Shown one piece after another: positions 9,744 through 31,837 of a stretch of DNA of 64,000 nt. Each line of letters opens with the position of its first letter. The first letter of the stretch is position 1. Position numbers and translations under genes: made by a program. Origin of the DNA: Halalkaliarchaeum desulfuricum (GTDB taxonomy: Archaea; Halobacteriota; Halobacteria; Halobacteriales; Haloferacaceae); the NCBI RefSeq assembly GCF_002952775.1, contig NZ_CP025066.1, positions 682,001-746,000 on the forward strand. Direction: 5' to 3'. Below the pieces are notes generated by a model, which searched no databases, had not been told where the DNA came from, and saw nothing but the letters and a program-made list of their open reading frames with translations.

Positions 9744-10976
9744 ATGGGAAACTCGTCGGACGATACGTACACGCTGGAAGACGCCGAGGACGAGATCAAC
9801 ATCCTTCGACGTGTTGAGGACGATGTCGTGGAAGCGATCGAGAACGCCGCAACTGAAGAAGTCCTCCAGTACCTCATTGCAGAGCAAGAACTGGATATCG
9901 CCCACGACGGAAAACGCGGCCTCGGAAAGGTTCGGAAGGCAGTCCTGGAGTCCCGTCTCGCTTCAGATCGACTGAAGCGCCTCGTAAGTCTCCGTGGCGA
10001 CGAGACGCCCGAGGATATCTTGGTTCCTGAAGACGTCGTTCGGAACGCCAAGGTCGCGCTCGAAGCAGGGAAACCCGTCGTGCTCTACGGCCCGACAGGC
10101 ACCGGGAAGACGACGTTTGCGAAGCAGTTGGCCCGAGAAACGGGAATCGGCTATTCACTCCACACCGCGACGCCCTCCTGGACCCCGTCGGACATCATCG
10201 GTGGAATCAGCCCGGACTACACCGGAGAGTCCCTCAGCTATCGAACCAAACTCGGATGCGTCTCGGAAGGCGTTCGACGTGCCCGTCGATTCGACGTCGA
10301 ATATGGCGTCATTCTCGACGAAATCACTCGGGCGGACATCTCGAAAATCTTCGGTCCGCTCTACACCGCGATTGAGAACCCCCACCAGACGATCTTCGAG
10401 ACCGATGAAGGCGAGACCATCGAGCTTGACGAGCGTGTGAACATCATCTGTACGATGAACATGTCGGACCGAACGGTGAACGAACTCGACAACGCGATCA
10501 CCCGTCGGTTCGCCATGATCGAACTGGACGAGTATGAGGAGGACAAGCGTCGGCAACTGTTCAAGGACTGGATCAATACGCACATTTCGGAAGCGACGGA
10601 TCTGGCGGACGCCGAAATACTGCGGCTCTTCGAGCGGGACTACGAGGGAATCAACCACGGTCACGAAGCTACTGCGCAGGGCACGATCATGCGGTTCGGT
10701 CCGATGCACTACCGGGACGTAGCAGTCTTCCTCGGCGTCGGCTGCCGCGAAGGGGGCGAATACGAATACGATCAGACCGACGCGGTCGGTCAGGCGTTCC
10801 GTACCTACATCGTTCCGCGTCTCCTGAACTCGGCCGCGTTCCCGCAGGTCGAACGGATCGCCGAGCACTACCGCACGCTGAACGACGAATTCGAGGAATT
10901 CGACCTCACGCCGGCGGCGAAGTTGGCCGAACGCGAACTCGAACAGGAACGGAGACAGATGGGTTCCTACGAGTAA
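9744..10976 (+). CDS. mcrB: McrB-like AAA+ NTPase
   Basis: 410 residues. Walker A GPTGTGKT is at 116-123, Walker B VILDE with DE at 192-193, the McrB-type sensor CTMNMSDRT near 236-244 (N239) and a double arginine ITRRF at about 252-256. The family forms GTP- or ATP-driven hexamers that translocate DNA and activate the McrC nuclease. The 100 residues before the AAA+ core are helical and acidic, and no EVE, YTH or DUF3578 domain is recognisable, so the modification it reads, if any, is unknown. It is followed by the McrC-like gene through a TAATG overlap. Confidence 0.88.
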   Translation: MGNSSDDTYTLEDAEDEINILRRVEDDVVEAIENAATEEVLQYLIAEQELDIAHDGKRGLGKVRKAVLESRLASDRLKRLVSLRGDETPEDILVPEDVVRNAKVALEAGKPVVLYGPTGTGKTTFAKQLARETGIGYSLHTATPSWTPSDIIGGISPDYTGESLSYRTKLGCVSEGVRRARRFDVEYGVILDEITRADISKIFGPLYTAIENPHQTIFETDEGETIELDERVNIICTMNMSDRTVNELDNAITRRFAMIELDEYEEDKRRQLFKDWINTHISEATDLADAEILRLFERDYEGINHGHEATAQGTIMRFGPMHYRDVAVFLGVGCREGGEYEYDQTDAVGQAFRTYIVPRLLNSAAFPQVERIAEHYRTLNDEFEEFDLTPAAKLAERELEQERRQMGSYE

Positions 10977-12736
10977 TGAGCGCCGTTGACGAAGTCTACG
11001 AGTACGGGCAAGACACCTTCAACGTCCCAGAGCGAGGCGAAATCCGCATAGAGGGGTGTCCGTCGTCCATCACCGACCAGCTTCGTCGCGCGTCGTTCAC
11101 ACGCGAGAGTCCAGGCGTGTTCACGAAGAGCCAGGAGGCGCTCGACTCCGATCAGGAGTACGAGGTCATCACAGTCACCGTCGAGGGGGACGACGGCAAC
11201 GTGCTCCACGTCTCCGCCACTGACATCATCGGCGTGGTGAGCCTGACGCCCTCGTCGAAGGTCCAAGTCGATCCCAAGATCGAGTGGGAGCATATCTTCG
11301 ACATGCTCCTGGCCGTGTACGACCAGAATCGCTCGTTGGAGTACCACGGTATTCCGTTACAGGACTTCCTCTCCGACGACATCCACCTCGACGACGTGTT
11401 CGTCGTGCTGGCGATCAACTATCTCGACGGCCTCGAAACCATCCAGCGCAACGGGTACATCCGCGACCTGATCCTCCGACGAGTTGACAGCCTGGACGGC
11501 CGCGGGGAGATCGACGTCGAACAGACGCTGCTCAACCACGCCCGCGGGACGATCGAACCCCACTGGATCCGGAACGAAATAGAGTACGACAACGCGGCGA
11601 ACTCGCTGCTCCATTACGCCGGGAAGACGCTCCTGCGACTCTTCCGGGAGAACGCTGCCGACCGCGATCACCCCGGGTACGTCCGGCTATTCTCCGAAGT
11701 CCACCGAGAGGTCGAACGCCTCGAACGGATGGGCGTTGATAGCGGGCTGGACCGCATCGACGAGTACCGCCGTATCTCGCTGGAAGACCTGCCGAAGCAG
11801 CGACGTTACTACCGGACGGCGTTCGACGTGTCGAAAGCGGTGCTGTCGTCCTCGCTCGGTCAGCAGCTCCGGGACGGCCCCCGCGAACTGGTCGTCGATT
11901 ACGTGCTGAACATGGAGTCGCTGTTCGAGCAGTATTCCCAGGTCGTGATCGAGCGAGAGCTCGCTTACGTGAAGTCGTACGACCACCTCGGAGATCTCGA
12001 AGCCGTGACCCCCGTCAGATCGCCGTCAGTGAATCCGTTCGAGGGCGAGAGCCAGATCCGGCACGAACCCGATCACGCGCTTCAGGAGGGCGACGAGACG
12101 ATCGCAGTACTCGACTCGAAGTACTACGCTGAGGGACACGATCCGGTGAAGGAGTCACCGTCCCGCTCGCGGCTGTTCAGCTACGCGTACCTCTTGGACT
12201 CTGACCGGCTTGCGTTCCTGTGTCCCCTCCTCGAACCGAGACGGCGTCGGGTCACGCAGACCGGTGCGGAGCTACGAATCGTCTCCCCGGAGGGCGAGTT
12301 CGCGCTGGACGTCTACGATGAGGTCATTCACGAGTACCTCCACGACGTTCTCGTCGAGGACCACCCGGAGCTCGAAGCGTTCCGCGCCGTCGCCGAGAAC
12401 GACCTGTGTCTCGACGGCGTGGACGAGGGGGACCTGAGTCGGGCCAAGGAAATGAGTGGTCCGTTCACATTCAAGGACGTCCGTGACTTCTCGCTCCGCG
12501 TGGTCAAGGCGGCCGCCGACGAGCACTCCTACAACGTCCGGAACCGATACGACCTCGAACAGGACGGCGACTGGACGCGCGATCAGATTGAGGCCCGTTG
12601 CGAGCGGCGATACGAGCACACGACGACGTGTATCCCGGTGTTTCACCGCGAAGGCGGGAATGAGTGGATCGACCTGTACTTCCTGCAGAACGGCACCGGC
12701 GAGGTTGAGAAGGAAGGTCCGCTGAAGCTTCTGTAG
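10976..12736 (+). CDS. mcrC: McrC-like nuclease subunit
   Basis: 586 residues, longer than E. coli McrC (about 350). The McrC core has the early strand SSKVQVDPKI and FDMLLAVYD. The PD-(D/E)XK site reads EPDHALQEGDETIAVLDSKYY in the second half (PD, then DSKY), followed by RLFSYAYL. The extra 150 residues after the nuclease (from about 440) form a separate acidic domain with no match I know. The start ATG overlaps the McrB stop codon. Together they make a type IV-like restriction complex cutting modified or otherwise foreign DNA, by family knowledge. Confidence 0.85.
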   Translation: MSAVDEVYEYGQDTFNVPERGEIRIEGCPSSITDQLRRASFTRESPGVFTKSQEALDSDQEYEVITVTVEGDDGNVLHVSATDIIGVVSLTPSSKVQVDPKIEWEHIFDMLLAVYDQNRSLEYHGIPLQDFLSDDIHLDDVFVVLAINYLDGLETIQRNGYIRDLILRRVDSLDGRGEIDVEQTLLNHARGTIEPHWIRNEIEYDNAANSLLHYAGKTLLRLFRENAADRDHPGYVRLFSEVHREVERLERMGVDSGLDRIDEYRRISLEDLPKQRRYYRTAFDVSKAVLSSSLGQQLRDGPRELVVDYVLNMESLFEQYSQVVIERELAYVKSYDHLGDLEAVTPVRSPSVNPFEGESQIRHEPDHALQEGDETIAVLDSKYYAEGHDPVKESPSRSRLFSYAYLLDSDRLAFLCPLLEPRRRRVTQTGAELRIVSPEGEFALDVYDEVIHEYLHDVLVEDHPELEAFRAVAENDLCLDGVDEGDLSRAKEMSGPFTFKDVRDFSLRVVKAAADEHSYNVRNRYDLEQDGDWTRDQIEARCERRYEHTTTCIPVFHREGGNEWIDLYFLQNGTGEVEKEGPLKLL

Positions 12737-13980: not shown

Positions 13981-16662
13981 TCAGTAACTCGTGATATCCC
14001 GATCGCCAAGCACCCGCGTGTAGGTGTCGTCGCTGGTCACGTCCGCGAGCCGGCCCGCTAACTCGCGGAGGTCGTCATCGACGCCCCACTTGTCCACGTA
14101 GTTCTGGACGGACTGGCCCTTCTCGTAGCGGTACCGGAGGAACTGGAGCTTGTCGAGGTTCGAGAGGTGTTCGCCGCCGTCGCCGTTGACCCGCTCCTGG
14201 ATGTACGCCTGCCGCTTCTCGTTGTCCCAGGTGCCGAGCTCGAAGCCGTCGTCCTGGTTGTACAGGCGCATCTCCTTGAGGTCCTCCGGCGTGGCGTTCG
14301 TCCCGCGGCAGAGCTTGTTGACGTCGTCGTAGGAGACGTTCGGGGTGTCGAGCAGGTCGATGAATACGTCCTCGACGCCGATATCGCTGGCCTCCTGAAT
14401 GATGCCGTAGATCTCCTGGACGACCTCCTTGGCGGACATGATCTCGCCGTCGCGCTGGACCTTGCCGTGGTGCTTGGAGTACTCACGGAAACACGCGCCC
14501 ATCTCCATCACGCCGATGTCGCCCCGAGAGAGATCGCGGTTCTCTTCGAGCTGCTTGCGAGTCTGGCGGGCCGTGCGGTAGATGTTGCGGCGAAGCGACT
14601 TCCACGAGGTAGGTTCGGTATCGTCGATCGGACGGGCGACGACGACGATGTCGAAGGAGACTGCTTCACCAGTAATGAATTTGTTTATGTCCGCAGTAAT
14701 TGGGTATGTTGCTGTAACTTCGAACCCAACGTCACATAGTGATTCAAGCAATTCTCCCCATGATTCTGAGTCACTATGGTGGTAAGTAAACGTTAGAACA
14801 CCATCGTCTTTGAGTGCCTGGTCAATGGTACTGAATGCTTCACGAAGCTCTGATTCAAATTCTTCCGGCCCCTTTCCCTCTGCCGGATTAGAAACTATGC
14901 TTTCCGCCCTCGGGGCTGCCTCTGATTCGAAACAGTCGTAATCAGATTTCAAGATGGTCCTCAGCCATACATAAAAGAAATCAGATAGTTCAGAATATAA
15001 GACATTGTGATAATACGGTGGATCTGTGATTACCGCATCATATTCATTTTCGGCATCAATCTGTCGCATATCTCCTTGGCGAACTGTTGCATTTGCCCCG
15101 ATAGGTTGGTTGAAAGGCTCTGATTCTATAGATTCGCCATCCGAGACATACCGCTCAGTAGGAGATCGAGCATATTCTACTCCAGATTTCACCATATCCC
15201 AAATGGACTCAAACGTACCTCTACCATATTCTGTACCCCACACATTACCTTCAGTAGGTTGTTGAGGGGGATCAAACGAGTTAGATTTGAATATGTTTAT
15301 AATCTTATTGTAGGAGTAATCGTAACCGACCATCATCGAATTTGTTCTCAAAGTGCCGCTGAATGCCAGCAAGAGATATTCCTGTAGATTCTGATCTTCG
15401 ACCTCAGAGATAGATCGAAGTAACTTGGATAAAGAAAGTAATTGTCTTTCATTATACATATCTGTCCAATATTCGATATCATGTATTTCCAAATTCCCTT
15501 CTCCACGAGCCGTTGCTTCGAACTTTGGTGAGGCGGTTTTATATCCGTCTCGTATTTCTATATTCGGTGTGAATTTATGGAGGTAATCGTTCGATTCCCA
15601 TTTGTTTTTCGCCTTTTCAAATAACTCTTTGTCCGTTGTTGTACTTTGTTTATAGCCCTTGAATTCACTCCTGTCTCGCCCATTACTATCACACTCTGAA
15701 CAATAGTACTCAACGGCATAAAGACGGGTTGAATAACCATTCTGTTCTTGGATCGCATCCGTTATTCTGTATTTTTGTCCACAGGCGGGGCAGTTGTAAT
15801 TCCCCTGTGATGCATTCCCTTCCTTGGGTACAAATCCGTGGCCACAGTCATTGCAAACGCTATCAGATTGCCAGTCATCTACCAGGGTGACTGCACCACA
15901 ATCAGGACAGAGGACGTTATACTTATCGTCGTTCTCGTAGCGCCCCTTTGCCACTCGATAGTCCTTAAAAAGCGGAACCGTGCTGCCACAGGAGACACAG
16001 TCCAACTCCTTCACCCAGAAGTTGTACATCACGTCCGCGTCGTGGTCGCCGTTCGGACAGGGCGTCTTGTAGTACTGCGTAATCTCGTCGGCGACGTCCT
16101 CCTTCACCTGCTCGAAAGCCTCCTCAAGCTCTTCGACGTCAGTCTGGCCCGCTTCGAGTTCCTTCTTCGTGACGAACCACGCGACGGGGTTCAAGTCGTT
16201 GCCGACGACCTCCGCGCCGAACCGAGACGCCTCGACGAGTGACGTCCCGCCACCCATGAACGGGTCGAGGATTTTCTTGTCCTCGACGCGGACGTCTTTC
16301 GGGTAGAGTTCCCAGAGGCTCTCCGGGTCCGTCATGTCCACGCGTTCGAGCAGCGACGCGACGTCGAGGTCGGACTCGCCATCGTCGTCGCCGTACGCCG
16401 CGAGCGTGCCACCCTCGTGACCCGGCTCGTAGACGGAGACCTTCTCGGGATCGTCGAGGAGTGTGTACAGACAGATCGCGCGGAAGACACAGCCCAGGCG
16501 GCGCGCCCACCACTTGTGCATCGTGTAGATCGGACGGTAGTACATCTTCGCCCGCCCCTCTTTCTCGGCGATCTCGTTCACGCGCTCGATCGGGAACCCC
16601 CGTTCGATGGGGAGTTCCGTACGCTCGTGGCGCTCCTGCGAGGATCCGGATTGCTCAGACAT
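13981..16662 (-). CDS. DUF1156 adenine-specific DNA methylase with Zn ribbons
   Basis: 893 residues. The DUF1156 signature ERGFPIERVNEIAEKEGR is followed by YRPIYTMHKWWARR (about 20-55). The AdoMet-binding loop is DPFMGGGTSLVEA (133-145) and the catalytic motif is DPPY at 547-550. Five CxxC knuckles (C222/225, C252/255, C270/273, C291/294, C321/324) make the Zn ribbons of this family (COG1743). It should methylate adenine in host DNA. Codons for residues about 225-668 are AT-rich (plus-strand positions roughly 14660-15990) while both ends are GC-rich, so the centre was probably exchanged. It heads an operon with the Fic gene; its usual partner, the DUF499 ATPase, is 3.2 kb upstream on the same strand. 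Confidence 0.9.
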   Translation of the reverse strand: MSEQSGSSQERHERTELPIERGFPIERVNEIAEKEGRAKMYYRPIYTMHKWWARRLGCVFRAICLYTLLDDPEKVSVYEPGHEGGTLAAYGDDDGESDLDVASLLERVDMTDPESLWELYPKDVRVEDKKILDPFMGGGTSLVEASRFGAEVVGNDLNPVAWFVTKKELEAGQTDVEELEEAFEQVKEDVADEITQYYKTPCPNGDHDADVMYNFWVKELDCVSCGSTVPLFKDYRVAKGRYENDDKYNVLCPDCGAVTLVDDWQSDSVCNDCGHGFVPKEGNASQGNYNCPACGQKYRITDAIQEQNGYSTRLYAVEYYCSECDSNGRDRSEFKGYKQSTTTDKELFEKAKNKWESNDYLHKFTPNIEIRDGYKTASPKFEATARGEGNLEIHDIEYWTDMYNERQLLSLSKLLRSISEVEDQNLQEYLLLAFSGTLRTNSMMVGYDYSYNKIINIFKSNSFDPPQQPTEGNVWGTEYGRGTFESIWDMVKSGVEYARSPTERYVSDGESIESEPFNQPIGANATVRQGDMRQIDAENEYDAVITDPPYYHNVLYSELSDFFYVWLRTILKSDYDCFESEAAPRAESIVSNPAEGKGPEEFESELREAFSTIDQALKDDGVLTFTYHHSDSESWGELLESLCDVGFEVTATYPITADINKFITGEAVSFDIVVVARPIDDTEPTSWKSLRRNIYRTARQTRKQLEENRDLSRGDIGVMEMGACFREYSKHHGKVQRDGEIMSAKEVVQEIYGIIQEASDIGVEDVFIDLLDTPNVSYDDVNKLCRGTNATPEDLKEMRLYNQDDGFELGTWDNEKRQAYIQERVNGDGGEHLSNLDKLQFLRYRYEKGQSVQNYVDKWGVDDDLRELAGRLADVTSDDTYTRVLGDRDITSY

Positions 16663-19853: not shown

Positions 19854-22800
19854 CTACTTCTGGAAGCTGATCTCGACCTTTAGACTCGACGCCTCGTCGG
19901 GCATCCGCTCGAACAGGTCCTGCACCTTCGTGTAATCCTGCTCAGATCGCAACGTCAAACTGACCTGCGTCCGCTCGATGTCGGCGGTACCCTGCAACGC
20001 CCCGGGAACCCCCTCTCTGTCGGGGAGCATGAACGTGACGTCGCCGTACTCGACAGTGCCAGTCTGGTGGTCGCGTCGCCACTTCTTCCGCATCGCGGCG
20101 ACGTCGTCGCCGTTGTACTCGAAGCGCCACGTCTCCGATCCGACGTCCGGAATTCGGAACGGGTAGCCTGGCACCCAGTCGGACGCCTTCTCCGACCCGG
20201 TCGGCCCGACGACGTACACCGGGTCCTCCTCGCGGCCGAGGTTCCCCAAGAGGAATGTCTGCACCATGTCCTCGGTGACGGTGTCGTCGAACCGGTCCGC
20301 AACCTTGCTCACGGTGAACTGGTCGCCCGCGTCGAGGTCGTCCAGGTAGTCGAGGATCTGTTCCCCGATGCGGTCCGGCACGGTCGGCACGATCTTCACC
20401 GTCGTCGGATCGCGGTCGCCGAGCGATTCCAGGTACCGGCCACCGGCCTCCAGCACGTAGTCGTCCACGAGGAAGTCGTTCACCGCCCCGCGGGCCGCCG
20501 TCTCCGTCTCGTCCGGCGGGAGGAACACCGACTCGTCGGCGCGCACCTCCCCGATGATCGTGTCGAGGTTGGCGTATCCATCCTCGTCGATCGCTTCCTC
20601 GATCCGGGCCGCGAGATACGACGCGCCGACCGTCCTCGCGCTCCCGACGTCCCGGAGCGTCGCGTCCGACTGCGGTTTGTCGAGGATCTCGTTGCCCTTC
20701 ACGATCACGTACTGATCCTCGCGGTTCAACCGCCCGATCGCGCGCATCACGACGTCGTGGCTGTCGCCGTCGATCCAGACCTCGCCGTCTTCGACCAGCT
20801 CCAACTCGAAGTCCCCGATGTCGATCGCGGTCGTCCCGCTTCCGAACCGCCGCCGGAGTTCCTGTTCGACGTCGTCCACGCCCCACAGCTCCACGTCGTC
20901 CTTCCGAACCAGCACCGTATCGAGCGAACTTCCGGAGAGATCGTCGCGGAAGCCGCCGGTGTCCCGGGCGAGCACCGGCTTGTCGGCGAGCGCCTTCACG
21001 GTCGCGTTCAGCACGTCGTTCGCACTGCCGGGGATCGGGAGTTCCGGATCGCGGAGGAACTGCTCGTAAATGTCCTCGATGGAGATTTCTCCCCGTCGGT
21101 CCAGCAGGTCGTCGGCGACGGGCCAGACATGCGACTGGAGGTCGAGCGGGTCGGCGGACGCGGAGTCCGCGATGTTGTCCGCGTCGAGCTCCGGCCCGTC
21201 GATGACGTACACGTCGAGATCCATCGGGGTCATGTCGTCCCAGTCGGTGAGCAGGTTGTCGCCGTCCAGGACCTCCCCGTACAGGAGCTGTAGTTCCTCG
21301 CGGAGTTCGTTCTCCTCCTGTTCTTTCATCCCGCGGATGGACTCCCGGATGTCCTCGTCGAGCGACTCGTCAGCGAGTACCTGCCGGGCCCCCTCAATGT
21401 ACCGCGCCTTGTCGATGTACCGTGTCCCGGACTCAATCGCCTTGTCGCCGGACGGCTGAACGAACACGAGCGTATTGCGCCACTCGCGTCCGCGCCCGTC
21501 GTTCCTGATGACGCGTTTCACCTCGTCCTGCGTCCACTGGTCGTCCTTCACGACGATCTTGACGTCGCGGTCGTCCGGCACGTCGCGGATGTCGTCGGTC
21601 CGGAACCCGACCGGGTGCGCGTTCGACCCGAAGATGGCTGTGACGAAGTCGGCAATCTCGGCTTTGGCGGACCGCTCGGAGACGTCGGTCGCTGCGTTCC
21701 GGATGAGCGCGTTCGGGTTCTGCCGGTCGCGGATGGCGTATTTTCCGTTTAGCTTGTGGAGGTGCCACGCGACACCGTGCAATCGCTCTAGGTTAAGCAC
21801 GACGTCGGAGACCAGGTCTCCGGTCTCGTACGCCCCCATCACGATCTCCGAGATCTCCGCGCCCTCGCCCTCACTCGGTTTGAGCGAGTACAGGAGGATC
21901 GTGTTCAGGATACGGCGACCATGAGGGACGTCGTCAGTATCGACGCGGTTCTCAATGTCGCCCGTCGCGGCGTTCAGTCGCTCGTAGTTGATCTTGGCGA
22001 GTTCGTCCTCGAACTCGATCGCATCGATGTCCCCGTGCGTGATCAAGTCCGTCCGGTCACGCATCTCCAGGAGAACCTTCGAGAAGAGGTATATCATCCC
22101 CCGGGTGTTCTGGTTCCCCTCGTCGGCGTAGTACCGCGACTCCAGCGCGTCGAGCAGCACAGGGTGGAAAGGGTAGTGATCGTGCATCTCCGACAGAAGT
22201 TCATCGGGGATGCTCACGTGATCCGACTGGTCATACGTGTCGAAGTACCCGTTGACGATCTCGCGGGCGGCTGCCTCATCAACGTTGTCGATCAGCCGGT
22301 GAAGGAGGACTTGCCGCTTGTCCACCTGGTTGTTCATGTTGACCTCGACCGCTTGTTCCCGGTTCAGGATGTCGTGGACCTCGGAATCCTCGCGCAGGAC
22401 GGAGACGATAGTGTAGAGTTCCAGGTCGGAAAGCGCGGTGGATTCGAGAAGCGACTGGAGGAACGCCTTGTTCGCGCTCTTGCGGTCCCCCTGCAGCGTG
22501 TCGAACCAGTCTTCGAGTTCGTCAACGAGGAACGCCACCGTCTCGTCCCCGACTGCGTCCTGAATGGTCTGCATATCGGGATACCCCCCCGACTCGTAGG
22601 TGCCCGGATCGTAGTCCAGTGCCTCGAAGAACGGCTCCCAGAGGTACTCGTACTGCTCGTTCTGCATGGCGACTGTGATCGGGGTCGCCGAGTCGGGCAG
22701 CGCGTCCTCGAACCCTTCGATCTCCTCGCCGGCCCACGCACCCGCCGCGGCCGGGTCGGCGAAACAGTGATACATCGCCACCATCTGGTGTGACTTCCCG

Positions 22801-23060
22801 CTGCCGTACGGGCCATAGAGGATGTGCGTCCCACGCGGGTCGTCCCCGGTGAGGGAATCCCGAAGGATGGAGAGTGCCTCCCGGAGCCCCTGGGTCATCA
22901 ACGTGCGATCGAAGAAGAGTTCGGCGTCGGACTCGAACTCGTTCTCGTCGTCCACGTTGTAGAGTTTCACTTGGCCGTCGATCTGTCCGTCCTCTCGAAG
23001 CTCACGGCTGAGAGTGACTGTGTCGTCGAGAGTCTTGGACAGTGAACCTGCTTCCGACAT
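19854..23060 (-). CDS. DUF499 AAA+ ATPase (COG1483), partner of DUF1156 methylases
   Basis: 1068 residues. Walker A GPYGSGKS is at 83-90 and Walker B VAFLVDE with DE at 180-181. The order DRTLMTQGLREALSILRDSL before the P-loop and HDHYPFHPVLLDALESRY in the middle are typical of DUF499 proteins, related to the PglY/BrxC ATPases of phage-exclusion systems. These giant ATPases work with a DNA methylase in defence. The start at 23060 is preferred over an in-frame ATG at 23093 because an AT-rich TTTATTT lies about 30 bp upstream. No PglZ or BrxL-like gene is present, so this is not a complete BREX locus. Confidence 0.87.
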   Translation of the reverse strand: MSEAGSLSKTLDDTVTLSRELREDGQIDGQVKLYNVDDENEFESDAELFFDRTLMTQGLREALSILRDSLTGDDPRGTHILYGPYGSGKSHQMVAMYHCFADPAAAGAWAGEEIEGFEDALPDSATPITVAMQNEQYEYLWEPFFEALDYDPGTYESGGYPDMQTIQDAVGDETVAFLVDELEDWFDTLQGDRKSANKAFLQSLLESTALSDLELYTIVSVLREDSEVHDILNREQAVEVNMNNQVDKRQVLLHRLIDNVDEAAAREIVNGYFDTYDQSDHVSIPDELLSEMHDHYPFHPVLLDALESRYYADEGNQNTRGMIYLFSKVLLEMRDRTDLITHGDIDAIEFEDELAKINYERLNAATGDIENRVDTDDVPHGRRILNTILLYSLKPSEGEGAEISEIVMGAYETGDLVSDVVLNLERLHGVAWHLHKLNGKYAIRDRQNPNALIRNAATDVSERSAKAEIADFVTAIFGSNAHPVGFRTDDIRDVPDDRDVKIVVKDDQWTQDEVKRVIRNDGRGREWRNTLVFVQPSGDKAIESGTRYIDKARYIEGARQVLADESLDEDIRESIRGMKEQEENELREELQLLYGEVLDGDNLLTDWDDMTPMDLDVYVIDGPELDADNIADSASADPLDLQSHVWPVADDLLDRRGEISIEDIYEQFLRDPELPIPGSANDVLNATVKALADKPVLARDTGGFRDDLSGSSLDTVLVRKDDVELWGVDDVEQELRRRFGSGTTAIDIGDFELELVEDGEVWIDGDSHDVVMRAIGRLNREDQYVIVKGNEILDKPQSDATLRDVGSARTVGASYLAARIEEAIDEDGYANLDTIIGEVRADESVFLPPDETETAARGAVNDFLVDDYVLEAGGRYLESLGDRDPTTVKIVPTVPDRIGEQILDYLDDLDAGDQFTVSKVADRFDDTVTEDMVQTFLLGNLGREEDPVYVVGPTGSEKASDWVPGYPFRIPDVGSETWRFEYNGDDVAAMRKKWRRDHQTGTVEYGDVTFMLPDREGVPGALQGTADIERTQVSLTLRSEQDYTKVQDLFERMPDEASSLKVEISFQK

Positions 23061-23544
23061 CTGTTGATACGTATACAGGCTGCCACTGAGCAAATAAACA
23101 CTATGGTGCAGTCTCCGAGGGATAGATGGATGTCACCAAGTGTAGCTTCAATCGTATCCTGGCGAGTACATCGTCCATGATAAAACTAACAGATTAAATT
23201 TATGTTTCTAAAGTCGTGCAAGGTGGAGGGCACGAATGTTGCACTGGAATGATTATGTTTTAAATATATTCTATCTTATATGATGTGTACAGACGGTACA
23301 CACATCAATGAGCAATTGTTCCGTTTACTCAGAAAACACTGGAACGGACGGCAAATGGAGATGTAAACTGGTCAGTGAGGGTCTTACCAGTATCACATGA
23401 TGTTCTCGGCACTGTGCAACATACAGAGGATCAATTCAGCATGGCAATCGCGTTCATTTAGCTCCAGATGTACTGAACTAGCTTTACTGTGGACGGTACG
23501 GACTGCTCGTTCGAAATTCGTGATATGACACTGCCTCCAACAGA
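23061..23544. other. AT-rich intergenic region
   Basis: 484 bp with no protein-like frame. It holds the promoter of the DUF499 gene near 23090 and the second TGATGTGTA/TACAC...ATCA dyad at 23281-23307. The sharp fall in GC from the DUF499 gene into this stretch marks the boundary of the GC-rich part of the methylase system. Confidence 0.55.
23281..23307. repeat. Inverted repeat TGATGTGTA...TACACACATCA, copy 2
   Basis: Left arm TGATGTGTAC (23281-23290), spacer AGACG, right arm GTACACACATCA (23296-23307). The right arm carries a two-base insertion relative to copies 1 and 3. The core GTGTAC-AGACG-GTACAC is a perfect 6-bp dyad, extended to TGTGTAC/GTACACA. It lies about 220 bp upstream of the DUF499 start. 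Confidence 0.5.
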
Positions 23545-25498: not shown

Positions 25499-25617
25499 GG
25501 GAGATGATCAACTTCCAAGTTCAGAGTTGATGCTACACTTGGTTTCTAACACATTTATGCCGAACATGGTGGCAGGTTTGGACCTCACTGTACTGTCTCA
25601 GAAAGGTGGGTTTCTGA

Positions 25618-25626
25618 TACACATCA
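25618..25626. repeat. Single arm TACACATCA
   Basis: One exact arm of the island dyad, embedded here in the local palindrome CTGATACACATCAG (25614-25627). It lies just upstream of the AbrB-like gene's TATA-like TTATAA, so it could be an operator for that gene and the recombinase. Confidence 0.35.
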
Positions 25627-25668
25627 GATTATAACTAAGTGTATGGCTACACGAAGTGATAACAGCCC

Positions 25669-25845
25669 GTGCCCGAAACAACCGTCACAAAGACGACGTC
25701 GCAGAGCGGCGACCGTGAGATTGAACAGTACAAGACGACAGTTCCCAAAGCGCTCGCTGAGTCGTTTGGGCTGGAGGGGAAGAAGCTCGACTGGGAGGTC
25801 AAGTCCGGAAACAAGTTTGAACTCACGATCGTCAAAGATGAGTGA
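25669..25845 (+). CDS. AbrB-like small protein preceding the recombinase (GTG start)
   Basis: 58 residues starting with GTG, the only start possible because an in-frame TAA lies 6 bp upstream. It reads PETTVTKTTSQSGDREIEQY followed by KTTVPKALAESFGLEGKKLDWEV and ends GNKFELTIVKDE. The TVPKALAESFGLEGKKLDW core is the swapped-hairpin AbrB/SpoVT fold used by small DNA-binding proteins and antitoxins. Its last 8 bases overlap the start of the recombinase (ATGAGTGA), so the two are translated together, and it probably controls recombinase expression. Confidence 0.72.
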   Translation: MPETTVTKTTSQSGDREIEQYKTTVPKALAESFGLEGKKLDWEVKSGNKFELTIVKDE

Positions 25846-26503
25846 AACAGCAGTCGGCTATATCCGGCTCTCCCAAGACGGAAAGTCACTGGAGCGGCAG
25901 CGCGACGACGTAGAGGAGTACGCCGACGAAAACGACCTCAACCTCGTGGAGGTGTATAACGAAGGGCGACGCGCATCCGGCTTCGATTCCGATCGCCCGG
26001 AGTACCAGGCGCTGCTGGAGGACGCCAATAGCGGCGACGTCGCCGCCGTGGTCGTTCCGAACCTCTCCCGTCTCTCTCGGGACCGGAAGGAACGTCTTCG
26101 CCTCCTACTGGACCTCGACAATATCGGTGTGGAGCTACACTCGCACGAGCTCGGGCGCGCCGTTGACCTCGACGACGACTGGGAGCTCGTCCAGCAGTCG
26201 ATCAAGGCAACCACCGACGACGTCGAGAAGCGCAGGGAGATCAAGCGGTCGAAACGGGCCACGAAGGAACGTCTGGAGAACGGTTTCGACCACGGACGTC
26301 CACCCTTCGGCCTCCAGTTCGACGACGCCGGCGAGTACTGGGTCCCGGGTGAAGACTTCGACACTGCGCTGGATGTCGTCTCTCTCCGTGAGGACGGGTT
26401 CTCGTGGCGGAAGATCGCGGAAGAGACTGGTGTGAACAAGGATACTGCGCGGCGGATATGGCAGAGAAAGGACCGCTACCTGCAGGAGGTTGAGACGGCA
26501 TGA
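25838..26503 (+). CDS. Small serine recombinase (resolvase)
   Basis: 221 residues. The resolvase N-terminal domain begins GYIRLSQDG with the catalytic serine at S12, followed by LERQRDDVEEYA and the VPNLSRLSRDRKERL arginine-rich motif. The C-terminal HTH reads SWRKIAEETGVNKDTARRIW. It is shorter than large phage integrases and matches resolvase/invertase-size proteins common on halophile mobile elements. The start at 25838 overlaps the AbrB-like gene; an upstream Met in the same frame (25643) would lie inside that gene. No inverted terminal repeats were found around it, so the element it serves is not delimited. Confidence 0.88.
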   Translation: MSETAVGYIRLSQDGKSLERQRDDVEEYADENDLNLVEVYNEGRRASGFDSDRPEYQALLEDANSGDVAAVVVPNLSRLSRDRKERLRLLLDLDNIGVELHSHELGRAVDLDDDWELVQQSIKATTDDVEKRREIKRSKRATKERLENGFDHGRPPFGLQFDDAGEYWVPGEDFDTALDVVSLREDGFSWRKIAEETGVNKDTARRIWQRKDRYLQEVETA

Positions 26504-26589
26504 CTGACGACACAAAAGACGAACTGGGAGATTACCGGAAATACGTTCGAAGCGAGAGCAAAGAGGAAGATGAAACTCTGGTTCGTTGA
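26500..26589 (+). pseudogene. Truncated 29-residue frame after the recombinase
   Basis: Starts in an ATGA overlap with the recombinase stop and reads MTDDTKDELGDYRKYVRSES followed by KEEDETLVR and TGA. It looks like the N-terminus of a longer acidic protein cut by an early stop. The downstream remnant at 26596-26810 has compatible composition but is in a different frame, which suggests decay of one original gene. Confidence 0.45.
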
Positions 26590-26595
26590 GGCTAA

Positions 26596-26810
26596 CATCG
26601 AGCCAGCTTTCGACAGTATCGTCGGCAGTTCCGAGAAGAAGAGGAGAATCCCTTCTCCGGTGATGAACTCGACGACCACCTTCAGTACGTCGAGTTACTC
26701 GTGGATGCGTCGGAGCAAGGACCCGAGGTATCTCCAGTAGACCCTGACGATCCGGAGGTCTTGTTCAACCATGACTCCGATATCTCTCTCGAATCTCAGC
26801 CGAGATGGTG
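26596..26810 (+). pseudogene. Gene remnant without a start codon
   Basis: An open frame from after a TAA to a TGA reads as a haloarchaeal acidic protein (FREEEENPFSGDELDDHLQY followed by VELLVDASEQGPEVSPVDPDDPEVL) but has no Met, GTG or TTG near its start. It is probably the frameshifted continuation of the 29-residue frame upstream. A further 28-codon frame at 26771-26857 in another phase (ending FKEAIRELEAQRK) may be its original C-terminus. Both are decayed. Confidence 0.45.
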
Positions 26811-27004
26811 AGCGGTTTAAAGAAGCGATTCGGGAGCTCGAAGCACAGCGGAAATAAGACGAGAAACACCTCTGCACTTGGGTAGTGGTTCCTGCCCCCC
26901 GCAACGCTTTTCATTGTAAAGGTTGTAAGGATTAAACACGAAGCTCTAAAAATGGCGTCCGGGTGGCACCGACCGTCAGAAAAAGAGTTCGTCCCTCTCC
27001 CCGA

Positions 27005-27063
27005 ATAACAGGTTCACCGGATAATGGGTTCACGCCTGCTAAAACGGGGATGACATCGTGAAC
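27005..27063. promoter_or_regulatory. Operator-like direct repeats ahead of the toxin-antitoxin pair
   Basis: ATAACAGGTTCAC (27005-27017) and ATAATGGGTTCAC (27021-27033) match at 11 of 13 positions and start 16 bp apart. An inverted GTGAAC follows at 27058-27063, 18 bp before the antitoxin ATG. Toxin-antitoxin operons usually bind their own promoter, so this is a plausible operator set. Confidence 0.4.
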
Positions 27064-27080
27064 ACAAACACGCAATCGCC

Positions 27081-27278
27081 ATGTCACAAGCAAACAAGCG
27101 AATTCCAGTCACCGAGGAACGATGGCGCGAACTAAACGAACTCAAACAAGCGGGACAGACCTACGACGAGCTTCTGAAGGAGCTTATTCAGGAGCGGAAC
27201 CGGCGTCAGCTCGCGGAACGCGCACGTCGCGTGGAAGAAGCCGACGAGGAAGAGTTGACGCCACTCGATGAGCTATAG
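27081..27278 (+). CDS. Antitoxin of a RelBE/ParDE-type pair
   Basis: 65 residues, helical and charged: RIPVTEERWRELNELKQAGQ followed by TYDELLKELIQERNRRQLAER. This is the haloarchaeal VapB/RelB-like ribbon-helix-helix arrangement with an acidic tail that would bind the toxin. The toxin gene starts 11 bp before this gene's stop, the usual translational coupling. An autoregulatory role is known for the family; the direct repeats upstream fit. Confidence 0.82.
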   Translation: MSQANKRIPVTEERWRELNELKQAGQTYDELLKELIQERNRRQLAERARRVEEADEEELTPLDEL

Positions 27279-27561
27279 CATCCTTCTTTCCGAGGAAGCG
27301 CAGGAATACTACCAGAGCCTCGACGACAAGAGCCAGCGGATCGTCAAGCAGAACCTTCAGAAACTGGAGGCAGAGCCGTACCCGAAACCGGGTGCCGGCT
27401 CAGGCGACCGTGAGAAGCTTGTGGTCGAGGGCGAGGAGATGTACCGTCTCCATATAGGGCGAACCCACACCGCCTTCTACAAAATCCGCGAGGACAAGGA
27501 GCAGGTGAGGATCGTCGATATCCTCACTATCGACGAAGCGCACGACCGATACGGTTTCTGA
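27268..27561 (+). CDS. RelE/ParE-family toxin
   Basis: 97 residues. It has the RelE/ParE fold signature: SILLSEEAQEYYQSLDDKSQRIVKQNLQKLEAEPYPK, then the beta hairpin EMYRLHIGRTHTAFYKIREDKEQVRIVDILTIDEAHDRYGF. Y/R/H residues near the C-terminus suit an mRNA-interferase or gyrase-type toxin; which of the two is not decidable. Expressed from the operon with the antitoxin. Such pairs are typical in halophile islands. Confidence 0.85.
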   Translation: MSYSILLSEEAQEYYQSLDDKSQRIVKQNLQKLEAEPYPKPGAGSGDREKLVVEGEEMYRLHIGRTHTAFYKIREDKEQVRIVDILTIDEAHDRYGF

Positions 27562-27668
27562 ACACGCACATTTGTATTTGCGACCGAGAGAGGATGGTGA
27601 ATGTGGTTGTCAGCGGTACATAGAATCAGGAAGCTCAATCTTATTAGACTGTGAACGTCCCGTTGGTT

Positions 27669-28121
27669 ATGGGCCCTCCAGACACCATTGCTCCTCTCAC
27701 AAAAGACCATCACTACACCGAACCGATCAGAATAGAACATACCCGCTTCGGGATCGAACGATTCTTCCATCGAGTACCGTTGGACTGGTTTCTCGTACTC
27801 TCCGGTGAGATTGATGCCTGGAGTTATGAATTCTTCCTAGAAAACAGGGACCTTTTCGAGGATGATTATTCAGTGGTAGGTGTAGACATTGATTACGACG
27901 TAGACCGTAATCCCGACGGTACTGGGAAACCGTTTCATGTTCTATTCTGTGATTCTGAAGGGGAAGAACGGAAATGTTACCCCCGTACGCATTACCTCCT
28001 TTGGCTCCTAGAATACGACGAGAACACTTACGAAGTGGTAGTAGTGGAGCCAACTGATGAACGTGCTGAGGTTGTCGTTGCTATCCAAGAACGGCTACCC
28101 CACGTCCCAGATCACGCGTAG
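27669..28121 (+). CDS. Hypothetical protein, 150 residues
   Basis: Clear coding frame with acidic, aromatic-rich sequence (RFGIERFFHRVPLDWFLVLSG, YSVVGVDIDYDVDRNPDG, HYLLWLLEYDENTYEVVVVEPTDERAEVVVAIQERL). No motif I recognise. The start ATG at 27669 has an AT-rich TTATTAG about 30 bp upstream, better than the GTG 18 bp earlier. Lone gene between the toxin-antitoxin pair and the cyclase gene. Confidence 0.6.
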   Translation: MGPPDTIAPLTKDHHYTEPIRIEHTRFGIERFFHRVPLDWFLVLSGEIDAWSYEFFLENRDLFEDDYSVVGVDIDYDVDRNPDGTGKPFHVLFCDSEGEERKCYPRTHYLLWLLEYDENTYEVVVVEPTDERAEVVVAIQERLPHVPDHA

Positions 28122-28451
28122 ACTCACTGGACGGGTGAAACTGCTCTGTGGAAATCCCCTCCTTCAGACATAGTCTCACCTGAACTAACCGGTTGATGAG
28201 AATTGCGTATTGAGTGGCGATGTTTCTACCAGCTCAAGGAGGTGTCCCGATAGTCGTACGAGATACGGGGTAGTGTACGGCAATGTCTGAGAGCCAGCCA
28301 TGACGGAATATAATGAGAAGCGACAAGTCAGTGAGCGAGTTCGTTGGATATGTTGGCAAACGCACGCCTCCATCCCGACGAGCTACAGCTGTACTTTCAC
28401 CACGCTTCGCGTAACTATACAAACCTCCAATAAGTAACATCAGAGAACAGA
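28122..28451. other. Intergenic region ahead of the cyclase operon
   Basis: 330 bp with no supported frame. It must contain the promoter of the cyclase/effector pair. An AT-rich stretch ACTATACAAACC near 28415-28426, about 30 bp ahead of the ATG at 28452, is the best TATA candidate. Confidence 0.45.
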
Positions 28452-29204
28452 ATGCCGGATTTCTCGGACTCTCACCAAGAGGAAATCATCGAACGAATTG
28501 GGGAGAGAGCAGAGACCGTCGAAGAACGACTTGAAGATATTCCCCGGGGCCGAACTAATCCTTCATTAGGAGATCTCACAATCCATTCTGCGAAAAAATA
28601 TCGTCTCGGGATTGTTTTCGTCGATATCAACGACTTCAGCAACTACATGAGTAGAAATGACGACGAGGATACGCTGTTTATGCTGAACTTATTCATCCCC
28701 GAGATCATGGAACTGGTCCGTGATTTCGATGGAAAGCTTGAGAAGAACACAGGAGACGGCATTCTCGCGTATTTCGGTGCAGGTGAAGATGATGGAGATG
28801 CGGTCGAAACACTACTAGAGTACATCGCTACCGTCAAATGGGCGTTGAAGTACCATGTCAATCCGAAACTGGAGGACAACGACGTTGAGACGATATCGAT
28901 CAGCACCGGGTCAGCGTACGACACAGTCTACATCTCACGCATCGGTGCTCACAGCGGCAACCAGCGGATGAACCGATTAACAGCAGTTTCAACTGGTGCG
29001 AATGTCGCGTCAGACCTTGAAGCGATGGCAGGAAAAGACCAGCATTACGTGAACGATGGCGTCTACGAGTATTCAGATGACGAGAACGGGTGGGGGCAAT
29101 ACGTGAAACATGTTGGTGAGCACAATGGATATACCTGGGGTAGTCCGCTGAAAGGGCACGACACCGCCCAGTACTACAAATTCACCGGGATTTGGCAAGA
29201 GTAA
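28452..29204 (+). CDS. pycC: Class III nucleotidyl cyclase, Pycsar-type (PycC-like)
   Basis: 250 residues. The catalytic fold is clear: GIVFVDINDFSNYM with the first metal-binding Asp at D58, KNTGDGILAYFG with the second at D102, and TAVSTGANVASDLEAMA, where N184 fills the conserved Asn position. The Arg usually four residues on (N-x3-R) reads D188 in my hand alignment. The helical 45-residue N-terminus replaces sensor domains, so this is a lone soluble cyclase as in Pycsar loci, where phage infection triggers cCMP or cUMP synthesis. The gene is followed 3 bp later by a Pycsar-effector-type membrane protein. Base specificity cannot be read from the sequence. Confidence 0.82.
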   Translation: MPDFSDSHQEEIIERIGERAETVEERLEDIPRGRTNPSLGDLTIHSAKKYRLGIVFVDINDFSNYMSRNDDEDTLFMLNLFIPEIMELVRDFDGKLEKNTGDGILAYFGAGEDDGDAVETLLEYIATVKWALKYHVNPKLEDNDVETISISTGSAYDTVYISRIGAHSGNQRMNRLTAVSTGANVASDLEAMAGKDQHYVNDGVYEYSDDENGWGQYVKHVGEHNGYTWGSPLKGHDTAQYYKFTGIWQE

Positions 29205-29207
29205 CCT

Positions 29208-29687
29208 ATGCCGTCACCGCCCACTGACTTTTCGGCGCAAACACTCTCTCATCTGAATGAGTACATCAAATTTGCTGATCAGAAAGCGTCTGTCCTCCTA
29301 ACAGGGCAGTTAGCATTTCTCGGGCTGTTCGTTACCGTCCTTGACGGAAACTGGGCTGGGGCCGATGTCGAGTTCAAGATTCTCGCGGCGATGACGATCG
29401 GGGCTACCTTACTCGCAGGGGTGTTCGCAGGCTGGGTGATTTACCCGCAGACAGAGCCTTCTGGCGGGGCTTTGCTATTTTGGGAGAACATCAATGCGAA
29501 ATGTCTTGATGATTACGAGTCTGAGATCAAGGGTTTGGACGAGGATGCAATGTTAGGAGAGTTGATTGAGGAGAATTACTTGTTAGCGGAAGTCGCATCG
29601 AATAAATATTGGCGTTTGAAGGTTTCCTTGGTTTCGACAGCAGGGATTGTGTTTTTCGCTACACTATCTATGGTTTCCCTGTTCTAG
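29208..29687 (+). CDS. pycTM: Pycsar effector-type three-helix membrane protein (PycTM-like)
   Basis: 159 residues. The family opening LSHLNEYIKFADQKASVLLT leads into a first membrane segment (about 27-45). A second (about 57-79, LAAMTIGATLLAGVFAGWVIY) and a third at the C-terminus (about 139-159) follow, with NKYWRLKVSLVSTAGIVFF at the end typical of the PycTM/DUF5706 group. Known effectors of this type bind a cyclic pyrimidine nucleotide and damage the membrane, causing death or dormancy of infected cells. It follows the cyclase by 3 bp, so the two form one operon. Confidence 0.82.
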   Translation: MPSPPTDFSAQTLSHLNEYIKFADQKASVLLTGQLAFLGLFVTVLDGNWAGADVEFKILAAMTIGATLLAGVFAGWVIYPQTEPSGGALLFWENINAKCLDDYESEIKGLDEDAMLGELIEENYLLAEVASNKYWRLKVSLVSTAGIVFFATLSMVSLF

Positions 29688-29840
29688 CTTGGGTGAGTGT
29701 ATCCCTGTAGAGTTTCGCCGTCAGACCCGAATTTGTCAACGATTGCAGCCAGTGGCCGGTGTAGTGCGTGTGACCGCATTTCCTCTTCGAGATGATTATA
29801 CAGGTATGCAAGACCCAACAGACGAGTACTGCTAATCCTT
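29684..29840 (-). pseudogene. C-terminal gene remnant on the minus strand
   Basis: The leftward frame STRLLGLAYLYNHLEEEMRS followed by HALHRPLAAIVDKFGSDGET and ending QGYTHPS with a TAG at 29684-29686 reads as a genuine helical protein end, but nothing convincing continues upstream past about 29840. It overlaps the effector gene's stop codon tail to tail. It is probably the surviving 3' end of a lost gene. I cannot name the family. Confidence 0.35.
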
Positions 29841-30370
29841 CCGACAATGGACGGTGTTGTGTGGAGGACTCGGTGCGCTGTGTGTCGCAATTAGCATCAA
29901 TATGCTTTGTTGAATCTGCTCTATTGACTCTAATGACGGCACGGGGATCACGACACCAGAAGGAGCAATTATTTTGCTCTTCGCCGTGGCTGTGTTGATC
30001 AATCTACTCAAAGATGTCTACCTTCCTACCTCTCAACCGAGAATACTTTTCAGAATGCTACCGACAGCGATACTGAACTGACCGTATCGTGATCCGATCC
30101 CGACGCATCCCACGGATTCAACAGAGCAAAATAGACTATTCTGAGATAGACTATTCAGAAGAGTTGTATCTGAGCACAAAAACGTGCGACTCTGTTCAAT
30201 CTCGAAGAGGTCACGACACACGCAAAGGGTGGAACCAACCGCCAAAAAGGTGAGAAAGGCTCGATAGCCGATGCTCAGCGCCGAACTAGTCTCGTAACGG
30301 GTAAGCCGACTTCAATAAAAACGGCGTAAGAACGTCCAGAACGCGGGATTGCGTTCTATAAATGTTCTAT
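29688..30370. other. Decayed region between the island and secY
   Basis: No intact gene. It holds the leftward remnant above and a rightward remnant at about 29845-30080. Positions 30080-30370 show no coding content; the 3' end of the SecY transcript must lie here, and no clear hairpin-type terminator was found. Confidence 0.5.
29845..30080 (+). pseudogene. Broken membrane-protein gene
   Basis: WTVLCGGLGALCVAISINML is followed by a stop. A second frame then reads SNDGTGITTPEGAIILLFAV followed by AVLINLLKDVYLP and ends ILFRMLPTAILN with TGA near 30080. Both pieces are hydrophobic with a haloarchaeal loop between, as in one two-helix protein broken by a frameshift and stop. It has no start codon in frame. 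Confidence 0.4.
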
Positions 30371-31837
30371 TTATTGGCCGAACATCTGGCGCATCATCGG
30401 ATGCATCTCCATCAACTGCTCTTCGGCGATCTCCTCGTACAGCTTGTACGTGATCGAGACCGCCAGCAGCAGCCCGGTTCCGGAGACACCCCCGATGGTG
30501 CCCAGCATGTTCGCCATCACCGCCAGGAAGCCGACCAGCGCGCCGCCGATGACCGTCACCTGCGGGATGTATCGCTCCATCACCTTCTCTACGACCTGCG
30601 GATTCCGACGGAAGCCGGGGATCTGCATTCCGGAGTTTTGAATCTGTTTGGCCGTCGCCTCCGGCCCCATGCCGGTGGTCTCGACCCAGAAGATCGCGAA
30701 GATCGCGCCGCCGATCACCATGAAGGTGAGGTCGATCGCGACACGGCTGGCGATCATCCACGGCTCCGCGGCAGTCTCGCCGAGGAACCACATCCACTCC
30801 TCGCGCGTCTGGATCGGGTTCGTGTAGTAGAAGAACCCGGAGATCGGCTGCCCCTGATCCCCGTAGACGCCCAGCCACTCGGGCATTCCCGGCCACTGGG
30901 AGTTGAGAATCTGCCCGAAGAACTGGATGTTCGCCTGCAGCGCCCGAACGAGTATCATCGGCAGGACTGACGCGTAGATTAGTTTCACTGGGAACCGCCC
31001 GCGGGCGCCCTTCACCCGTGCGTGTGACAGCGGGATCTCGACGCGAACCGACTCCGCATACACGACGATCCCAAAGATGAATAGCGTCGTGAATATCGCG
31101 AGGATCTCACCCGGTTCGAACAGCAGGGCAAACAGCCCCTCCGTCGTGAACGGGGAGCCGAGCGTCGTCTCGCCGAAGATGATTCCATACCAGCTCGCGA
31201 AGAAGCCCGTAGCGCCCAGTCCTCCCCAGCTGAAGAATCCGCCGACGAGCTGCTGACTCACGCTGGCGATAATGAACAGCCCGACGCCGGAGCCGACGCC
31301 CCACTTGCTCACGACCTCGTCCATGAACAAAATGAGGACGCCGCCCACGAACACTTGCAGGAACACCAGCGTGTCGATGACACCGATGCTGACGCCGAGT
31401 GCTTGCGCCACGGCGGGATCCGACGGAAGGAACTCGCCGGTAAACACCATTGGCGCTGCCGTCATCGCCGTGACGACGATGACGAGCAACTTCTGGAGCC
31501 CCTGGTACAGTATCTGGTCGCGGGGGTCGTTCGTGTCGAGTCCGAGCAGGTTGGCGCCGCCCAGCAGCTGCAGCACGATGGACGCGGTGACGATCGGACC
31601 GATCCCCACCTGCATCAGCGATCCGTGTTCGCCCGCCAGGATCGAGCGGAACTGCCCGAAGAAGTCCGTCCCCTCACCCGCAGCGAGCCCGAACGGGTTG
31701 ATGTTGGTGAGGAAGAAGTAGACGATGAGGATCACGGCTGTCCACATCAGCTTCCGCTTGAACGGGACGTGTCCCTCGGGCCGGTCGATCGAGGGCATCC
31801 GCGTCAGGACTGGTTCGGCGGCCTCCTTCCAGCTCAT
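30371..31837 (-). CDS. secY: Preprotein translocase subunit SecY
   Basis: 488 residues with about ten membrane segments. It has the archaeal SecY N-terminus (GHVPFKRKLMWTAVILIVYFFLTNINPFG), LLGLDTNDPRDQILYQGLQKLL, and the cytoplasmic loop VRVEIPLSHARVKGARGRFPVKLIYASVLP that docks on the ribosome. It forms the protein-conducting channel with SecE and Sec61-beta. It is the last gene of the ribosomal superoperon and starts 3 bp after L15 ends. In most haloarchaea an adenylate kinase gene follows it; here the defence island does. Confidence 0.97.
   Translation of the reverse strand: MSWKEAAEPVLTRMPSIDRPEGHVPFKRKLMWTAVILIVYFFLTNINPFGLAAGEGTDFFGQFRSILAGEHGSLMQVGIGPIVTASIVLQLLGGANLLGLDTNDPRDQILYQGLQKLLVIVVTAMTAAPMVFTGEFLPSDPAVAQALGVSIGVIDTLVFLQVFVGGVLILFMDEVVSKWGVGSGVGLFIIASVSQQLVGGFFSWGGLGATGFFASWYGIIFGETTLGSPFTTEGLFALLFEPGEILAIFTTLFIFGIVVYAESVRVEIPLSHARVKGARGRFPVKLIYASVLPMILVRALQANIQFFGQILNSQWPGMPEWLGVYGDQGQPISGFFYYTNPIQTREEWMWFLGETAAEPWMIASRVAIDLTFMVIGGAIFAIFWVETTGMGPEATAKQIQNSGMQIPGFRRNPQVVEKVMERYIPQVTVIGGALVGFLAVMANMLGTIGGVSGTGLLLAVSITYKLYEEIAEEQLMEMHPMMRQMFGQ

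Follow-up and report, generated by a model that had tools for sequence, protein, structure and literature searches.

A probable two-gene Pycsar antiviral operon in the haloarchaeon Halalkaliarchaeum desulfuricum

We identified a gene pair in Halalkaliarchaeum desulfuricum that most probably forms a two-gene Pycsar antiviral operon acting through abortive infection, a reading to which we assign a probability of about 0.8. The pair consists of a PycC-type cyclase gene followed after 3 bp by a PycTM effector gene, and lies within the 64,000-nucleotide stretch of contig NZ_CP025066.1 (positions 682,001 to 746,000) that was analyzed here and is referred to as the window. The locus has the following parts, in window coordinates:

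28366..28451, forward strand: conserved upstream segment, probable promoter, with an AT-rich box, CTATACAAA, at 28415-28423
28452..29204, forward strand: PycC-type class III nucleotide cyclase, 250 aa (Pfam PF00211, PADLOC PycC, AlphaFold2, tree)
29208..29687, forward strand: PycTM membrane effector, 159 aa, with three hydrophobic segments (Pfam PF18967, PADLOC PycTM, AlphaFold2, hydropathy)

A first-pass annotation, made from the sequence alone, had proposed a cyclase with both metal-binding Asp residues and a PycTM protein starting 3 bp behind it, and these assignments held up. D58 and D102 are both Asp, the cyclase stop ends at 29204 with the PycTM ATG at 29208, and both frames are intact. 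Profile searches gave significant matches for both proteins: the cyclase matched Pfam Guanylate_cyc (PF00211) at E 6.8e-6 (26.2 bits; cut-off 21.9) and its best PADLOC PycC model at 7.6e-16, and the effector matched Pfam PycTM (PF18967) at E 1.9e-11 (44.8 bits; cut-off 27.2) and PADLOC PycTM at 6.5e-28. The two effector motifs quoted in that annotation start at residues 13 and 132, and hydropathy places the hydrophobic segments at 26-47, 54-80 and 137-159. In the AlphaFold2 models, the effector (pLDDT 87.3) has long helices at 5-48, 54-78 and 112-158 plus two short ones, and the cyclase (pLDDT 88.9) has an N-terminal helix at 6-27. The 3.31 Mb single-contig genome contains one PycTM match and one PF00211 match. 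The PycTM sequence found no match in the PDB, either as a single protein or as a profile, and its model matched no solved structure at E 0.001 or better, so a pore is predicted from the PycTM family only; NINJ1, the top structure row (E 0.14), was left unused.

In the proposed mechanism, the cyclase would act as a dimer whose D58 and D102 bind two metals, and upon infection would convert a nucleoside triphosphate to a 3′,5′-cyclic nucleotide. The cyclic nucleotide would switch on PycTM, which would open or disrupt the membrane, and the cell would cease growing or die before virus release; in a molar-salt cell, a membrane leak would be quickly damaging.

The surroundings of the pair are those of a defense island, as the first-pass annotation had suggested, with toxin, recombinase, HmaB- and HmaC-like, Fic and AAA/McrBC genes. 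Apart from the Fic protein, which is also encoded to the left of the pair, the genes are:

9744..12736, forward strand: AAA ATPase (9744-10976) and McrBC component (10976-12736); PF07728 and PF10117 above cut-off
13981..16662, reverse strand: DUF1156 methyltransferase, HmaB-like; PADLOC HmaB 1.3e-35, PF06634 above cut-off
19854..23093, reverse strand: DUF499 ATPase, HmaC-like; PADLOC HmaC 4.3e-17, PF04465 above cut-off
25643..26503, forward strand: serine recombinase, whose true start may lie inside this frame; PF00239 E 8.7e-23, resolvase domain at residues 70-214
27081..27278, forward strand: probable antitoxin, overlapping the toxin gene; VAPB_antitox E 4.9e-4, below cut-off
27268..27561, forward strand: ParE/RelE-type toxin; PF05016 (ParE_toxin) E 4.3e-7, above cut-off
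30371..31837, reverse strand: secY, to the right of the pair, at the edge of the conserved chromosome; PF00344 E 2.6e-66

For the toxin-antitoxin neighbor claimed earlier, the toxin half scores above its Pfam cut-off, whereas the antitoxin match falls short of its own. No third Hma component was found among the five island genes scanned, and the interval 25400-30600 contains no convincing repeats marking insertion ends. A genome of the same genus matches the window at 93% identity from 30315 rightwards but lacks the island at this site: its 39.9 kb on the island side shows no window match by blastn (E 1e-8, minimum piece length 60 nt), and no PycTM match occurs anywhere in it; other island genes could be located elsewhere in that genome. 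The toxin gene and recombinase close to the window copy, together with relatives carried on haloarchaeal plasmids, would also suit a stress or inter-element conflict module built from the same parts and answering to a non-viral trigger, such as plasmid or competitor exclusion. We consider this unlikely, as the island holds other antiviral-type genes and bacterial members of the family are reported to act against phages (PMC11224242).

A survey of archaeal genomes, one of the checks proposed in the first-pass annotation, showed that the pairing of cyclase and PycTM recurs in haloarchaea and in the wider phylum. Of 391 haloarchaeal genomes, 12 contained a PycTM passing the cut-off (13 at E 0.001), and a PycC-like cyclase adjoins it in 11 of the 12, split into two frames in one of them (G267). 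The wider-phylum sample had a PycTM match in 12 of 392 genomes, nine of them above cut-off; six of seven further above-cut-off loci of the wider phylum adjoin a cyclase, and the seventh has none within the 1.9 kb examined. A cyclase-profile scan of named species genomes found 13 loci, five in bacterial MAGs and eight in haloarchaea (Halorubrum californiense, Natronococcus sp. A-GB1, Halococcus thailandensis, Natrialba sp. SSL1, Halorarius halobius, Halorubrum sp. CBA1125, Natronomonas sp. LN261 and Halarchaeum nitratireducens), and PycTM lies beside the cyclase in 13/13 of these loci found by the cyclase alone. The PycTM-led and cyclase-led counts overlap because several genomes are common to both surveys, with identical DNA in 5/5 pairs compared. 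The search patterns behind the bacterial loci include EKNTGDG, so the invariance of this motif among them partly reflects how they were chosen; in the haloarchaeal set found through PycTM, the only set free of that bias, it is kept in 10/10. Overall, the pair occurs in haloarchaea, the methanogens' phylum and bacteria. Phage records gave no cyclase match at E 0.01. Among viral contigs, the cyclase scan picked up a single relative (33%) with a PycTM-like frame behind it; its contig, by eye, also carries helicase- and transposase-like frames. The PycTM pattern scan, which was stricter, found none.

Several relatives have a modified arrangement. At L007:184-1182 (G097), one of the 12 haloarchaeal PycTM genes above cut-off lies downstream of a 332-aa protein without a Pfam match; this neighbor has no detectable relation to PycC, the idea of a hidden cyclase found no support, and the protein may make a different signal. 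In three loci the Pycsar pair adjoins a second cyclase, 319-325 aa long and retaining both metal Asp residues: L017:4941-5918 (Natrialba sp. SSL1), L065:4902-5879 (Haloterrigena salifodinae pHTS138) and L011:475-1434 (G267). It has Asp at the column of residue 98, Gln at 100 and Arg at 103, and the three sequences form their own clade; two of the genes are divergently oriented and the other lies behind PycTM. In Natronomonas and Halarchaeum (L020:3794-5974 and L021:3779-5974), a GHKL/HSP90-like ATPase of 726-731 aa precedes PycC, its gene overlapping the PycC start in the former and ending 2 bp before it in the latter, and a three-gene sensor-cyclase-effector operon is possible there. Halorarius halobius has two divergent PycC paralogues (L018:5156-5914 and 5983-6732) with one PycTM, behind the second paralogue, within the 12.7 kb examined, and L050:568-2583 (G521; same phylum, other class) has one PycTM between two cyclase genes. 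On plasmid pHLAC01 of H. lacusprofundi, a 538-bp match (94.8%) breaks off inside the cyclase, with an ISH3-type transposase gene approximately 190 bp further on; neither the 10.5 kb examined nor the plasmid yielded a PycTM. Two TIR-domain genes precede this truncated PycC (L063), and a transposase and two ATP-binding protein genes follow it.

Plain similarity fails to separate a Pycsar cyclase from an adenylate cyclase. A single-sequence PDB search ranked adenylate cyclase 1wc1 first (2.8e-6), above cytidylate cyclase 8jsf (6.2e-5); the haloarchaeal profile ranked 8jsf first (1.2e-11) with five adenylate or guanylate cyclase (AC/GC) rows within 5.2e-11; and Foldseek placed guanylate/adenylate cyclases above 7r65 (rank 14), 8jsf (19) and 8jsz (32). 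The PADLOC PycC models also match cyclases without an adjacent PycTM, so such a match alone is non-diagnostic, and we did not accept it as proof: haloarchaeal cyclase-methyltransferase fusions score up to 2.8e-18, and of four scanned with PADLOC, three outscore the window cyclase and one scores worse.

The phylogeny, one alignment column and the N-terminal helix, by contrast, favor a Pycsar cyclase. A 51-row tree, rooted at its midpoint and built with PycC clades A and C absent, divides into a Pycsar side and an AC-type side with split support of 94/91, and the window cyclase stands apart from the ordinary adenylate cyclases, in agreement with the earlier reading. The Pycsar side comprises clade B, D and E references and relatives, the methanogen-phylum, bacterial and haloarchaeal pairs, and the haloarchaeal second cyclase; the AC side holds seven haloarchaeal cyclase-methyltransferase fusions, each of them checked by Pfam, along with four AC/GC references and three proteins from bacterial plasmids that carry a cyclase or AAA ATPase annotation. 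These fusions (L027, L029, L031, L033, L036, L037 and L044, the last of which also carries a TFIIB repeat) form one clade. Partial chains served as references for clades B, D and E and for the AC/GC group (four rows). Near-duplicates were left out (L014-L016, L020, L021, L028, L030, L035, L039-L043 and L045), as were L017's own PycC, the split G267 PycC, L034, L038, L074, the cut-off frame in L052 and further annotated cyclases in L070 and L073. The 15 haloarchaeal PycC rows form one clade (100/100) that joins the five bacterial PycTM-partnered cyclases (95/95), and the three clade E rows form their own (100/97). One row taken as near clade D (L069) groups with the methanogen-side row L048, and tree groups map uncleanly on clade D.

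At alignment column 188, the position of the transition-state Arg of adenylate cyclases, Arg is present in 14/14 AC-type rows and absent from 36/37 Pycsar-side rows. The window cyclase has Asp here, which could lower its activity, and Lys is the commonest residue in the haloarchaeal clade (7/15). The N-terminal helix is a described hallmark of PycC (PMC11224242), and among 50 solved-structure rows only three have alignments that begin ahead of residue 28, namely 8jsz (from residue 4), 7r65 (10) and 1cjk (17), the last a mammalian adenylate cyclase. The 7r65 and 8jsz alignments cover the helix, which is left uncovered by the best AC structure rows, starting at 37-46, and by the clade E structure 8jsf, starting at 35. 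The window cyclase has the two metal Asp residues, adjacent PycTM, N-terminal helix and PycC grouping of a Pycsar cyclase; with the class III adenylate cyclases it shares the Lys/Thr pair (K98, T177), and it lacks their transition-state Arg (D188). An ordinary class III adenylate cyclase of haloarchaeal signaling, located beside a membrane protein by chance, would explain the resemblance of K98/T177 to an adenine-type pair and the AC/GC rows heading the single-sequence PDB and Foldseek results, and cAMP has been reported in Halobacterium salinarum (PMC1906763). This explanation is nevertheless very unlikely: class III cyclases are uncommon in haloarchaea (PF00211 in 17/391 genomes, or 20 with the three missed PycTM-partnered cyclases of G049, G301 and G380), the window cyclase is not among the AC-side rows of the tree and lacks the AC Arg, and PycTM accompanies every one of the loci found through the cyclase alone. 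The reading as a housekeeping adenylate cyclase was rejected because of the tree, column 188, the N-terminal helix and the PycTM pairing.

Returning to the Pycsar operon, copies in two other genera bear on its transfer. A blastn comparison (E 1e-8, minimum piece length 60 nt) aligned window 28366-29741 with H. californiense at 91% identity and window 28355-29699 with Natronococcus sp. A-GB1 at 92%, a common block of about 1.35 kb spanning just the two genes; G225 and G364 were tied to these H. californiense and Natronococcus records by identical DNA. The flanks are unlike, with only one 63-nt piece and a distant McrBC-side stretch matching, both in H. californiense, and SecY identity between the same genomes is 84% for H. 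californiense and 75% for Natronococcus. The high identity of the block between such unlike flanks, set against these SecY values, shows that the two genes and about 90 bp upstream moved as a unit. The upstream segment at 28366..28451 lies inside the 91-92% identical block and probably acts as promoter. Against the two relatives, the cyclase has a dN/dS of 0.10-0.11 and PycTM one of 0.20-0.32; the pair is under purifying selection, and these low ratios, together with recurrence in other genomes, indicate that the pairing is more than chance. A decaying or inactive copy, as Asp at column 188 and the existence of broken relatives (the truncated pHLAC01 cyclase and the split G267 cyclase) might suggest, is highly improbable for a locus with both frames intact, metal residues kept and a cyclase dN/dS of about 0.1. 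Separately, window 9703-11454 on the AAA/McrBC side shares 82-83% identity with a region that precedes the Pycsar pair of H. californiense by about 4.7 kb, so the islands of both genomes hold an AAA/McrBC stretch.

The identity of the cyclic nucleotide message can be approached through the base-reading residues, reported as Y50/D94/R97 for clade B (UTP), F60/K104/F109 for clade D (UTP) and F100/R142/Q144 for clade E (CTP); clade A PycC has two cyclase domains (PMC11224242), and the window cyclase one. The window cyclase carries F56, K98, T100, G103, L105 and T177. It has F56/T100/G103 in place of the clade B set, F56/T100/L105 do not reproduce the clade D set, and the clade D C-terminal zinc finger is absent because the protein contains no cysteine; F56/K98/T100 resembles the clade E set and differs from it. 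Among haloarchaeal rows, K98 is found in 15/15 and column 177 is Thr or Ser in 15/15. The three clade E rows have Arg at 98 and Thr at 177, AC-type rows have Lys at 98 in 12/14 and Thr at 177 in 10/14, and clade B/D-side rows have a basic residue at 98 in 0/11 and Val at 177 in 11/11. The bacterial PycTM-partnered relatives may differ in product, since Val occupies 177 in 4/5.

Lys with Thr or Asp is the adenine-reading pair of class III adenylate cyclases, and both cytosine and adenine present a ring nitrogen acceptor beside an amino group, which uracil does not. Based on F56, K98, T100 and T177, an amino-bearing base is expected; because the acceptor-amino pattern is common to cytosine and adenine and missing from uracil, we expect cCMP as the most likely message, cAMP as the main alternative and cUMP as the least likely. 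The message could be cAMP because K98/T177 fit adenylate cyclases as well as clade E. A cCMP-making Pycsar cyclase does exist, as E. coli PycC is reported to make cCMP (PMC9117128). The first-pass annotation had presented function in this host as inferred, which still applies, and the product nucleotide cannot be assumed either. More speculatively, and in our view rather doubtfully, the haloarchaeal cyclases and their bacterial PycTM-partnered relatives might constitute an undescribed PycC clade in which an AC-like Lys/Thr pair reads an amino base and the alarm is cAMP or a cCMP/cAMP mixture, with the neighboring second cyclase in some strains (Natrialba, Haloterrigena and G267) adding a second signal or a mixed dimer.

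Pycsar had been described in the first-pass annotation as mainly bacterial; the archaeal pair is real, but euryarchaeal Pycsar-type cyclases were already known. Pyrimidine cyclases in a few euryarchaeal species are credited to Tal et al. 2021 in a paper reporting that Haloferax volcanii contains cCMP and cUMP, with no match to known pyrimidine cyclases in its proteome and no COG2114 (adenylate/guanylate cyclase domain) member (PMC8646023). RefSeq-derived annotation names the effector a 'Pycsar system effector family protein' on two haloarchaeal plasmids, from Haloplanus sp. GX21 and Haloterrigena salifodinae. An Asgard survey lists Pycsar among the systems occurring more often in Asgard than in other prokaryotic genomes (PMC11291487), 'pycsar_unknown' genes have been reported in an ammonia-oxidizing archaeon, and the main text of a 2026 archaeal survey does not use the word 'Pycsar' (PMC12988326). 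No study of haloarchaeal Pycsar was among the best-ranked open-access literature matches. The kind of system is already known, and its archaeal branch, like cyclic-nucleotide immunity in archaea generally, seems little tested.

Among known systems, bacterial Pycsar with PycTM, as in Anabaena AnPycC/AnPycTM (cUMP) and E. coli PycC (cCMP), whose partner is PycTM, encodes cyclase and PycTM together as here, and its two metal Asp residues and N-terminal helix are common to the window cyclase; by comparison, the window pair is archaeal and its cyclase clade is separate from the B, D and E references. The clade E cytidylate cyclase EaPycC (PDB 8jsf) is the best PDB match of the haloarchaeal profile, with AC/GC rows close, and shares a basic residue at the 98 column, Thr at 177 and Phe at 56, whereas the window cyclase has K98 and T100 for R142 and Q144, belongs to a separate clade and is 17-18% identical in structure alignments. 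The clade B uridylate cyclase BcPycC (PDB 7r65) matches the window protein in fold and N-terminal helix (Z 22.3 across 219 residues), while the window cyclase has F56, T100 and G103 for Y50, D94 and R97, and T177 where clade B/D-side rows have Val. The adenylate cyclases CyaC (1wc1; Z 22.7) and CyaB (3r5g; Z 23.4) have the same catalytic fold, metal Asp residues and a K98/T177-type pair; in contrast, the window cyclase has no Arg at 188, an extra N-terminal helix and a linked PycTM, and lies on the other side of the tree. Judged from sequence, what is newer is that the haloarchaeal cyclases form a clade distinct from the B, D and E references, with predicted base-reading residues (K98, T177) closer to those of cytidylate and adenylate cyclases than to those of uridylate cyclases. 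This is the part worth testing: with an intact haloarchaeal pair, one can cleanly examine if cyclic pyrimidines serve archaea in defense against viruses and if the signal can be predicted from the base-reading residues.
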